DNA of 38,114 nt, from NCBI GenBank assembly GCA_016199545.1, contig JACQGN010000234.1, positions 1 through 38,114 on the forward strand, in the 5' to 3' direction. The position numbers were made by a program, and so were the translations under genes. This DNA is from Betaproteobacteria bacterium. GTDB lineage: Bacteria > Pseudomonadota > Gammaproteobacteria > Burkholderiales > SG8-41. Under the pieces are notes generated by a model. That model was not told the DNA's origin, ran no database searches, and saw nothing but the letters and a program-made list of their open reading frames with translations. Positions 15,771 to 38,114 of this stretch are shown in pieces (position 1 is the stretch's first letter; the number at the start of each line of letters is the position of its first letter).

Positions 15771-15829
15771 TGGATCGAGTCCGCCCATCAGCATCTTCGC
15801 CGCAAACGACAAACGATGGAAAACTCAGT

Positions 15830-15925
15830 CCGCCTGCGATTCCGCCGAGCCGAGCCCGCGTCCCGGGAGCAAGCTCGCCGAGGGCGCATAGTAGGTCTTA
15901 TGTCGGTCTTAACGGGGGACTGGCG
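15830..15925. repeat. GC-rich intergenic repeat family, copy 1
   Basis: CCTGCGATTCCGCCGAGCCGAGCCCGCGTCCCGGGAGC ... CTTAACGGGGGACTGG; similar to 21105-21195 and 37877-37970. Confidence 0.6.
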
Positions 15926-16137
15926 CTGAATTACTGAGCACTCTATTCCAGCCGCCAGAGCAAGGCAAGCTCGTGCTCGTATCCTGGCTCATTCGAGGCG
16001 TTACTTGGGTACGGCAGCTCAGGCGATGTCGGGAACCGAGCGTAATGCAGAGTGCTGTGTAACAATGGCGCGCCGCGAGGGATTGGAAAATAGGTTAAAC
16101 GATGGCGGAACAAGAGACTTATAAGCAGGAAGGGCCG

Positions 16138-17328
16138 ATGAGCATAAAACCCCTGGAGGGCATCCGGGTTGTCGATTGCACGCATATCGTTGCGGGGCCA
16201 TTTTGCACGATGCTTCTGGCGCAGGCCGGCGCGCAAGTCATCAAGCTCGAGCCCCCCAAAACCGGCGAGTGGTATCGCGCAAACGCATCGACCATCCCGA
16301 ACGACATCGGTGAGCGCGCGCCTCTGAGCTTTGTCACGCTCAATCGCGGCAAGCTCGGCGTCACTCTGAACCTCAAGGATCCGAAGGGCAAGGAAGCGTT
16401 CAAGAAGTTGGCGGCTGTGAGCGATGTCGTCGTGGAGAACTACGCCCCGGGCGCCATGAAGCGGCTCGGGCTGGACTACGGCACGCTGAAGACCGTCAAC
16501 CCCCGGCTCGTTTACGCGTCGATCTCCGGCTTTGGCAAGCGCACCGATCTGCGCGGCCCATACGCTGACTGGACGGCGCACAATCCGTCCGCGCAGGCGA
16601 TGAGCGGCATGATGGATGGGAGCCGCGAGCCCGGCGGCCCTCCCGTGCTGGTCAGCGCGACGATTGGCGACACGATTCCTGCAGTGTGGACCGCGTACGG
16701 CATTACGTTGGCACTGCGACAGCGGGAGCGAACCGGCAATGGCCAGTTCCTCGACATCGCCATGTACGACACGATGGCCATGCATAACAACGTCGCCGTG
16801 GCATCTGTGGAGCTGGATGGCGCGAACGCCGGCCGGCGCCATCAGCAAGTGGGCCCAGCCGACCATGTGCTGTTCGAAGCGCAGGATGGCTGGGTGATGC
16901 TCTCCGGCGCGCGCGAGCATGAGAAGTGGGAGAGGCTGTTCCGTCACATCGGCCGGGCCGACCTCAACGATGGTCAGAAATACCTCACCCTCAACATCAA
17001 GCCCGTTCTCGAGGGCTGGAGCAAGCAGTTGCCGAAGGCGGAGGTCTGCCGCATCATGCTGGGCATGGGCTTTTCGCCTGCGCCGGTGCAGACGGCGACG
17101 GAGGTGTACCAGTGCCCGCAGCTTGAAGCCCGGCGCATGTTCGTCGGGTTCGAGCACCTGGGCCGCAAATTCCGCCACCTCGGCGATCCGATCAAGCTCT
17201 CGAACGTGCCGGACACCGTGGGCAGTCCGCCGCCGCTGCTGGGCGAGCACAACGAGTATGTGTTTGGCGAGATCGTCGGTTTCAGCCCCAGCGAGCTCCA
17301 GCAGATGAAGGCGAGCGGGGTCTTCTAG
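16138..17328 (+). CDS. CaiB/BaiF-family CoA transferase (ORF open from 16102)
   Basis: PLEGIRVVDCTHIVAGPFCTMLLAQAGAQVIKLEPP, VTLNLKDPKGKEAFKKLAAVSDVVVENYAPGAMKRLGLDY, VYASISGFG; AGGAAGG upstream of 16138. Confidence 0.95.
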   Translation: MSIKPLEGIRVVDCTHIVAGPFCTMLLAQAGAQVIKLEPPKTGEWYRANASTIPNDIGERAPLSFVTLNRGKLGVTLNLKDPKGKEAFKKLAAVSDVVVENYAPGAMKRLGLDYGTLKTVNPRLVYASISGFGKRTDLRGPYADWTAHNPSAQAMSGMMDGSREPGGPPVLVSATIGDTIPAVWTAYGITLALRQRERTGNGQFLDIAMYDTMAMHNNVAVASVELDGANAGRRHQQVGPADHVLFEAQDGWVMLSGAREHEKWERLFRHIGRADLNDGQKYLTLNIKPVLEGWSKQLPKAEVCRIMLGMGFSPAPVQTATEVYQCPQLEARRMFVGFEHLGRKFRHLGDPIKLSNVPDTVGSPPPLLGEHNEYVFGEIVGFSPSELQQMKASGVF

Positions 17329-17533
17329 GAGTGTGTCGGACTTTACTCCGACACACTCCTTACGCAAGACCGCCTGCAGGCAAAGGGCACAATTGGATGT
17401 GGAAATACCTGAATTGGACCTGGCCGGTGCCTTGGCGATGGCAAGAGCAGGTCTGTTCACTCCGTTTCGTTGTAAAACCGCAGGCGGTCTTGCATTTAGC
17501 AGCCTGTCGTATGCTAAGTCCGACAGGCTGCTA
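17325..17533 (+). repeat. REPIN/MITE-like element, copy A
   Basis: AGGAGTGTGTCGGA(17327-17340)/TCCGACACACTCCT(17347-17360); inner arms GCAAGACCGCCTGC(17364-17377)/GCAGGCGGTCTTGC(17480-17493); TAGCAGCCTGTCG(17497-17509)/CGACAGGCTGCTA(17521-17533). Confidence 0.85.
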
Positions 17534-20745: not shown

Positions 20746-20955
20746 TAGCAGCCTGTCCGACTTAACACTTCGACAGGCTGCTATAAGCAAAACCGGCCGC
20801 AGACTTCACACATTGCAACCCGAGACCTTCTCAAGACGATGTCGCCTTGCACAATTCTTCACGGTTCGCTCCACTCGAATTCCTTTCTTGCGACCTCTTG
20901 CTCGGCCGGTTTTGCCTAAGGAGCTTGTCGCATCTTGAGTCCGACAAGCTCCTAG
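20746..20955 (-). repeat. REPIN/MITE-like element, copy C (inverted relative to A and B)
   Basis: TAGCAGCCTGTCC../CGACAGGCTGCTA; inner arms GCAAAACCGGCCG(20787-20799)/CGGCCGGTTTTGC(20903-20915); AGGAGCTTGTCG(20919-20930)/CGACAAGCTCCT(20942-20953). Confidence 0.85.
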
Positions 20956-21104
20956 CGGTCGCGTTCGACGGCATCTGGACAGGACTCGATCACCCACGGA
21001 CCGAAGCTACTGCCGCAGCAGGAGCGTGTCAACCCCGCCGCCGTTGCAGCGCTCGCCACCGTGGCCCGGGACACGATGGCGAACGAAAATCAATCCGGCA
21101 GCGC

Positions 21105-21195
21105 TGTCGCCGCGCCGAGCCCGCGCGCCGGGAGCAGGTACGGACGCGGTGCCGGACTGCAATGGGCCTTCGGTCCTAATGGGGGACCGGCAGTC
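21105..21195. repeat. GC-rich intergenic repeat family, copy 2
   Basis: GCCGCGCCGAGCCCGCGCGCCGGGAGC ... CGGTCCTAATGGGGGACCGG. Confidence 0.6.
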
Positions 21196-24599: not shown

Positions 24600-24799
24600 G
24601 TCGTCTCCCGTTTGACAGTGCCCTTGGCATCATTGACTCGCCACTTCACGTGAGCATAGCATCAGTCCCGGGAGAACGACGCAAGCGAGCAGTAACTGCG
24701 CAGGGCGGCCGAACGACGATGCAGGGCTACAATCGTCACGATGACATGGCCGACAGCAGGTCGATCACGCATATTACTCAGGCACGACAAGGAGGGAAG

Positions 24800-26200
24800 A
24801 TGGGCACGACGCAACGGATGGCTCGCTTTATCGCAGATGGCAAGTTCGAAGAAATCCCGGCCCCGGCCGTGAATCTGTCAAAGCTTTGCCTGTTGGACGC
24901 GGTAGGCTGCGCCATCTATGGCACCACACGCCCGCTGGGCAAGATCATGACCGGTCTGGTCGACGAACTCGGCGGCAAGCCTGTGTGCAGAGTGCTGGGA
25001 ACGCGCATCGAGACCAACGCGGTCAACGCCGCGATGGCTAATGGCACGCTGGGGCATTCCGAGGATTTCGACGATTTTGCCGCCGGCCACCAGGCAGTGC
25101 TGCTGATGCCCGTGGTGCTCGCCTTAGGCGAAGAACTGCATGTCAGCGGCAAGCATGCTCTGCTCTCCTACATCGTCGGTTTTGACATCACCACCAATGT
25201 CACCCACAGTATGGGAGAAGATCACTACGGCAAGGGCTGGCACAACACCTCCAGCATAGGCACCTTGGGATCCACTGCTGCGGCGGCGAAGATGCTGGGT
25301 CTGGACGAGATGCAGACGCGCATGGCCTTGGGTATTGGTGCGAGCCAGGCTTCCGGCCTGCGCGGCAACTTCGGCACGATGACCAAACCCTTCCATCCCG
25401 GCAACGCCTGTCGCGCAGCGGTCACGGCCGCCAAGATGGCACAGAAGGGCTACGAGGCCAACCCGGACATCATGGAGCATCGGTTTGGCTACGCAGCGGT
25501 GTATGGCGAGGAAATGATGAGCCTCAGCAACATTACGCGCCACCTGGGCAACCCTTGGGCTCTCATGGGCAGCGGCCGAAACGTGGCCAATGGCATTCAA
25601 ATCAAGATCTGGCCCTGCTGCGGCGGCACCCACGGCGCCAACACCGCCATGACGCATCTGTTGGAGAAGCACCGCTTCAAGGCGGAGGACGTCGAATCGG
25701 TGGACATCATTACGACGCACGAGCCCTCCTGCATGGCGCCAAACCTGCGCTGGCCTAAGTCCGGTCTGCAAGGCAAGTTCTCCACCTGGTACACCGTCTC
25801 TTCCATGATTGTCGATGGCGGCAAATTGGATCTCTCCAGTTTCACCGATGAGGCGGCTAACCGACCGAGGGTCCAGGACATGCTGCGCAGGGTAAACGTT
25901 ACCCAGGACCCGGATACCACGGGACGGCCCCACCGCTCGCGGGGAGGCGGGCACTGGTGGGATGTGAGCGTGACCCTGAAAAATGGCGAGCGCTTGGTCG
26001 CACCCCGCGTCGAAGCCAACGGTGGCCGCGGCGATACCTACGGTTGGGAAACCAGGGATGCTGTATTCGACAAGTTCAAGATGCTGGCTGGCGCGGTGCT
26101 CAAGCCTGCTCAGGTGGACTCGGCGCTCAATGCGATCATGGATATGGACAAAGCCCCGGATGTACGCAGCGTCGTCGACACGGCGATCCTGCCGCGCTAA
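24800..26200 (+). CDS. MmgE/PrpD-family protein
   Basis: GGAGG RBS then MGTTQRMARFIADGKFEE; MANGTLGHSEDFDDFAAGHQAVLLMPVVLALGE, IGASQASGLRGNFGTMTKPFHPGNACRAAV, KIWPCCGGTHGANTAM. Confidence 0.94.
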   Translation: MGTTQRMARFIADGKFEEIPAPAVNLSKLCLLDAVGCAIYGTTRPLGKIMTGLVDELGGKPVCRVLGTRIETNAVNAAMANGTLGHSEDFDDFAAGHQAVLLMPVVLALGEELHVSGKHALLSYIVGFDITTNVTHSMGEDHYGKGWHNTSSIGTLGSTAAAAKMLGLDEMQTRMALGIGASQASGLRGNFGTMTKPFHPGNACRAAVTAAKMAQKGYEANPDIMEHRFGYAAVYGEEMMSLSNITRHLGNPWALMGSGRNVANGIQIKIWPCCGGTHGANTAMTHLLEKHRFKAEDVESVDIITTHEPSCMAPNLRWPKSGLQGKFSTWYTVSSMIVDGGKLDLSSFTDEAANRPRVQDMLRRVNVTQDPDTTGRPHRSRGGGHWWDVSVTLKNGERLVAPRVEANGGRGDTYGWETRDAVFDKFKMLAGAVLKPAQVDSALNAIMDMDKAPDVRSVVDTAILPR

Positions 26201-26407
26201 GAGTGTGTCGGGCTTAGTCCCGACACACTCTTTACGCAAAACCGCTCGCAGGAAAACAGTGCAATCAGCCTCAATCAATGCGGATTCGGTTGGATCCGTA
26301 TCATCATTCATGGTCTCTGGAGGTCACTTCAGCGACTTCTGTAGCAAATGTGCGGGCGGTTTTGCATTTAGCAGCCTGTCGGAGATGCAAGTCCGACAGG
26401 CTGCTAG
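26199..26407 (+). repeat. REPIN/MITE-like element, copy B
   Basis: AAGAGTGTGTCGGG/CCCGACACACTCTT(26199-26232); inner arms GCAAAACCGCTCGCA(26236-26250)/TGCGGGCGGTTTTGC(26351-26365); TAGCAGCCTGTCGGA(26369-26383)/TCCGACAGGCTGCTA(26392-26406). Confidence 0.85.
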
Positions 26408-37848: not shown

Positions 37849-37876
37849 AACCCTCCTTGTTAACGATGCGATAATC

Positions 37877-37970
37877 CGTCAGCCTGCGACTCTGCCGCGC
37901 CGAGCCCGCGCGCCGGGAGCCGCCGGGAGCGCGCTCGCACAGCGAGCATAAAGGGGGTCGGAGTAACTTT
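37877..37970. repeat. GC-rich intergenic repeat family, copy 3
   Basis: CCTGCGACTCTGCCGCGCCGAGCCCGCGCGCCGGGAGC ... ATAAAGGGGGTCGGAGTAAC. Confidence 0.6.
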
Positions 37971-38090: not shown

Positions 38091-38114
38091 TAGGAGTGTG
38101 TCGGACTTAGCTCC
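38091..38114 (+). repeat. REPIN/MITE-like element, copy D, cut by window end
   Basis: TAGGAGTGTGTCGGACTTAGCTCC matches the left terminal hairpin of copies A and B. Confidence 0.75.

Follow-up and report, generated by a model that had tools for sequence, protein, structure and literature searches.

Copy A, a 208-bp repeat at positions 17326..17533 (+) of the window (i.e., the whole stretch of 38,114 nucleotides analysed here), is, with a probability of roughly 0.83, a non-autonomous MITE belonging to an insertion sequence (IS) of the IS1182 family (DDE), with borders that usually read CTAG...CTAG, and would be moved in trans. It shares its ends with that family, belongs to a high-copy population, shows no target duplication, and carries paired changes in all of its helices. 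Its unusual features are the hairpins, which plain IS1182 copies lack, a REPIN-like layout, and the occurrence of solo palindromes of 36-38 bp. That is, the element is best read as a hairpin-ended variety of MITE of the IS1182 family, REPIN-like in layout only.

Copy A and its relatives

An inverted-pair search of the window delimited copy A. Its left terminal inverted repeat, TAGGAGTGTGTCGGACTT, lies at 17326..17343 (+) and its right one, TAGCAGCCTGTCGGACTT, at 17516..17533 (-); in the repeat search the outer 18-nt inverted pair, TAGGAGTGTGTCGGACTT / AAGTCCGACAGGCTGCTA, is 83% identical, and the 18-bp terminal inverted repeat of the element is TAGSAGNNTGTCGGACTT. The left subterminal hairpin (17327..17360, +), with a 14-bp stem and a 6-nt loop, consists of arms at 17327-17340 and 17347-17360 that match at 100% over 14 nt; the right one (17497..17533, +), with a 13-bp stem and an 11-nt loop, consists of arms at 17497-17509 and 17521-17533 that match at 100% over 13 nt. 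A third, inner stem joins GCAAGACCGCCTGC (17364..17377, +) to GCAGGCGGTCTTGC (17480..17493, +), again at 100% over 14 nt, with 102 nt between the arms. All three helices had been described in an initial annotation and were recovered exactly by the repeat search. The annotated end, 17533, also stands, whereas the start shifts from 17325 to 17326, because the C at 17325, the first letter of a CTAG, belongs to the flank. Copy A folds with a z-score of -10.3 as DNA and -9.1 as RNA relative to shuffles, and its longest stop-free frame, of 69 codons, is too short for a transposase.

Copy A is located between a gene of CoA-transferase family III (16102-17328), whose stop codon is the first TAG of the element, and a gene for a TctC/Bug receptor. 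Copy C, of 209 bp (26198..26406, +), likewise provides with its first bases, TAA, the stop codon of an MmgE/PrpD gene (24650-26200). Copy B, also of 209 bp (20746..20954, -), is in reverse orientation and has a CT-type left end, and a half copy consisting of the left end only (38091..38114, +) runs off the contig end. Within the window, 13 matches to the end motif TAGSAGNNTGTCG are found at up to 1 mismatch, compared with 0.79 expected, and none of 100 shuffles reached 13. Two further features of the window were noted. A second short dispersed repeat, with consensus ~CGCCGCGCCGAGCCCGCGCGCCGGGAG and unrelated to the MITE, is found at 15812-15870, 21086-21136 and 37862-37920, and 27 nt are identical in two of its copies. 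At the window edge (1-713, -), an IS5-type transposase gene (DUF4096 plus DDE_Tnp_1), already recognized as IS5 in the initial annotation, is cut by the contig start; beyond its end, the inward sequence CTAGGGCCTGTACACATTCGG is faintly like the MITE end.

In the MAG as a whole (4.41 Mb in 349 contigs, 79% complete), 228 ends were counted at up to 2 mismatches, compared with 9 for a reversed-pattern control, so that the dispersed nature proposed from copy A is borne out genome-wide. This number corresponds to about 110 element equivalents, part of which are solo hairpins; many of the ends sit at contig ends, as expected for a repeat, and most copies measure 196-215 bp. Across 60 relatives, the ends have a patchy distribution but are abundant within the same bacterial family (418 in G035, 309 in G004, 103 in G016, 102 in G010, none in many others), and the rest of the order has almost none; searches of plasmid and phage collections gave no match to the element. 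Every copy studied comes from MAGs. A 166-bp relative with ends TAGGAGCCTGTCGGACTTAGG / TTGGAGCCTGTCGGACTTAGG was seen in another family of the order (G058, L074 1501-1666).

The usual copy combines one TAGGAG-type end, of subtype TG, TT or CT, with one TAGCAGCC end, and a few copies have two TAGGAG-type ends (L027, L028). In alignment A1, of 28 copies and 222 columns, the subtype of the left end (columns 7-8) is tied to the inner-side base that precedes GCAA (column 39), with TG going with C, TT mostly with T, and CT with G. The interior, initially thought not to be conserved between copies, is partly conserved within subfamilies in this alignment. Solo units, 36-38 bp in length, are common; the genome contains four occurrences of one 38-mer, three of which were seen with unrelated flanks. 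At one pair of loci with the same flanks, our genome has a TT-type solo hairpin (L201) and the sister genome a longer CT-type copy (L244), a difference that we read as one unit having replaced or converted the other.

Terminal repeats shared with IS1182-family transposons

A scan of named genomes identified a complete IS with the same ends in a groundwater betaproteobacterial MAG (L234). This locus carries TAGCAGCCTGTCGGACTT at 139 and its inverse at 1708, identical at 18/18 positions at both ends, each bordered by CTAG. Its transposase, of 451 amino acids, includes DUF772 and DDE_Tnp_1 and scores 363.5 bits with the NCBIfam IS1182 model (NF033551), for which the cut-off is 270. In the genome of copy A, contig C69 carries the end TAGCAGCCTGTCGGACTT and, about 105 bp behind it, the N-terminus of an IS1182-type transposase that is truncated where the contig stops (L190/L204). 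A search with the C69 N-terminus retrieved relatives with the same motif at the upstream end, such as G008 (L205), where the gene lies about 50 bp behind it. Among further IS1182 loci in relatives, six have TAGCAGNNTGTCGGRCTT ends (L206, L207, L216, L218, L220 and L221), some of them sharing the hairpin, and L217 shows a perfect 20-bp terminal inverted repeat beginning CTAGGAG. In the closest genomes, contig ends truncate the autonomous copies, and L204 and L205 match at the only end seen.

The resemblance has its limits. In L206 and L207, the IS end consists of a hairpin followed by AAATGGAA, resembling the right end of the MITE read inward (CTGCTAAATGCAA); the subterminal hairpin is, however, absent from the IS copies with exact ends (L234, L204, L205), and the match between MITE and IS does not cover the whole end. 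The left end of the MITE (TAGGAGYK) is unlike the IS end (TAGCAGCC). Copy number does not correlate with a detectable IS1182 gene across genomes, and G001 and G010, which hold many ends, gave no match to the IS1182 N-terminal query, which gaps in these MAGs could explain. The mere presence of DUF772 was also considered as a simple correlate of copy number and discarded as uncorrelated (4/10 genomes).

One candidate for a full IS1182 element, L209 in G004, turned out to be a citrate synthase gene with an IS1182-like N-terminus. In its 453-aa frame (1486-2844), the first ~48 residues resemble the N-terminus of an IS1182 transposase (E = 3e-4), residues 77-453 are citrate synthase, and a degenerate TAGCGGTCTGTCGGACC end lies upstream; this may be a transposon-gene fusion.

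Insertion sites, folded structure and alternative origins

The sister genome G001, ~94-98% identical at the flanks, together with the genome of copy A, provided ten pairs of occupied and empty sites, each of which may reflect either a loss in G001 or a gain in our genome. Target duplication is absent in all ten; instead, 2-28 nt differ between the occupied and empty sites and were apparently replaced. Two empty sites have TG where the occupied ones have [TA...TA] (L033, L036), and a third, with CTGA (L044), is compatible with the same TG replacement; the other sites differ by 3-28 nt. A classical duplication of TA or CTAG was ruled out, since the empty sites show CTGG, CTGG, CTGA and other sequences instead of CTAG. 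The flanking base is C at 24/31 left and G at 24/31 right borders, and both bases are mostly present in the empty sites too; thus they look like a target preference. At L044 and L027, a TAG stop codon in the occupied site corresponds to TGA in the empty one. Target hairpins, which are typical of IS1272, are not enriched either among the empty sites (P ~0.26) or in the flanks of the 210-bp copies (P = 0.65), a point against the IS1182 assignment.

Pairing was assessed across the 28 aligned copies. The proposed structure has 93.5% paired cells, versus a shuffle mean of 89.0%, and 15 pairs are changed on both sides, in 50 such cells, versus shuffle means of 6.9 and 15.8; none of 500 shuffles reached any of these three measures, and all sliding controls drop to 34-43% paired. 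All three helices contribute paired changes, so that structural conservation, whose lack would have spoken against the initial annotation, is present. Between orthologous copies (L054 and its counterpart in G001), whose flanks are 98-100% identical, matched changes appear on both hairpin arms. Template-switch correction of quasipalindromes can yield paired changes without selection. Selection on the structure is likely, and kinship among copies together with such correction could explain part of the signal.

In the mechanism that we propose for an IS1182-family MITE, the element carries only the ends expected to be recognised by the IS1182 (DDE) transposase, i.e., the 18-bp repeats TAGSAGNNTGTCGGACTT, usually bordered CTAG...CTAG, and would be mobilised by this enzyme in trans. 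Next to each terminal repeat stands its own complementary arm, and the interior is joined by a further stem, such that a single strand or a cruciform forms three helices; by analogy with stem-loop-replacing models for IS1272, these folded ends may be part of the transposition substrate. Insertion occurs without target-site duplication, apparently at a short site, often C-TG-R beside a gene end, with the element replacing a few bases. A more far-reaching version of this scheme is tentative, and on balance we consider it unlikely: that a DDE enzyme drives these repeats as a REPIN-like population, in which the IS1182-type transposase acts on folded ends, in single-strand or cruciform form, so that the hairpins and the inner stem must persist, replacement swaps a few target bases, and the 36-38-bp palindromic units move alone.

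We also considered whether IS1182 elements had inserted in pre-existing hairpins of an unrelated repeat family, the arms merely resembling IS ends. IS1272 does insert into stem-loops (PMC4923244), and in L215 an IS1182 element abuts a hairpin arm. Moreover, one solo 38-bp unit has its place in a perfect 9-bp hairpin that resembles a terminator, within the loop; without the unit, this hairpin reads AAGGGCAGC-CTAGC-GCTGCCCTT. Nevertheless, GGACTT or GGGCTT follows inward at every IS end but on one arm only in the palindromic units; the ends of L234 are identical at 18/18 positions; and those of L237 differ in the manner of imperfect terminal inverted repeats (TAGCCGCG versus TAGCAGCC), unlike paired arms. 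This target effect is thus very improbable as the source of the similarity.

Even less probable is a RAYT-driven REPIN, i.e., a pair of inverted REP units that a Y1 (HUH) transposase would mobilise, to which two inverted palindromic units, copy numbers in the hundreds in some genomes, compensatory changes and solo units would all be well suited. The outer tetranucleotide is, however, CTAG in most copies, with GTAG at only 1/31 left borders, and the ends match those of an IS1182 (DDE) element instead. A RAYT flanked by the same ends, which the initial annotation had suggested looking for, was not found: a PF01797 search of the 79% complete genome found four Y1_Tnp loci, none with these ends within ~1.5 kb. 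Between the two classes named at the outset, REPIN or MITE, it is therefore the MITE that is supported, its 18-bp ends being IS1182-family terminal inverted repeats, while the RAYT/REPIN half finds no support. The same genome does contain a separate REP system, in which a Y1/RAYT-like gene (L082, G000:C86) lies by its own, different GTAG palindromes, GTAGGGCGGGAAAGCGC...CCCGCC.

We give equally little credence to a domesticated RNA or DNA hairpin cassette kept for its action at gene ends (3'-end stability, termination or stop codons), for which transposition would be no more than a distant origin: the paired changes in all helices and between orthologous copies, the stop codons supplied by copies A and C, and the two sites with TAG in place of TGA are in its favor, but at most tested sites the sister genome has no copy, which indicates turnover, a T-run terminator signature is lacking, an Rfam search matched no family, and quasipalindrome correction offers a route to paired changes other than selection.

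Comparison with known mobile elements

Placed in the IS1182 family, the element has close counterparts. IS1272 inserts without target duplication and removes the bases of a target stem-loop (PMC4923244, PMC5678879), and Methanosarcina acetivorans contains IS1182-family MITEs of 160-169 bp (PMC3852290); a review of prokaryotic MITEs leaves IS1182 unmentioned (PMC10969869). With the ISs of this family (IS1272, TnSha1, and ISMac2 with its MITEs) the present system has in common the terminal repeats, a DDE transposase with DUF772, the lack of target duplication, the replacement of target bases, and the existence of derived MITEs. It differs from them in that the MITE adds complementary arms that form hairpins and a third, inner stem, in its two unlike ends, in its solo 36-38-bp units, in a much higher copy number, and in the lack of enrichment of stem-loop targets among the 210-bp copies. 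With more than 100 natural structured substrates, and the empty sites of a sister genome, it offers a test set for stem-loop-replacing transposition in the IS1182 family.

QMITE2 of Coxiella, which is associated with IS1111 (PMC10969869), is likewise a MITE that has REP-like palindromes and is linked to an IS; there, however, IS1111 targets the palindrome of the MITE, whereas in the present case IS and MITE have their terminal repeats in common.

A REP/RAYT system requires a head of GTAG type and REPs on both sides of a Y1 gene (PMC2817692). The REPINs of Stenotrophomonas, Pseudomonas and E. coli resemble the present element in their two inverted palindromic units, their intergenic location, their hundreds of copies in some genomes and their compensatory changes; here, by contrast, the heads are CTAG rather than GTAG or GTGG, no RAYT is found with these ends, and the partner is of the DDE type. 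Palindromic elements that consist of two inverted units and occur in many copies are usually attributed to transposases of the RAYT (HUH) type, and the finding of DDE-transposon ends in a REPIN-like layout argues against calling such repeats REPINs by their layout alone.
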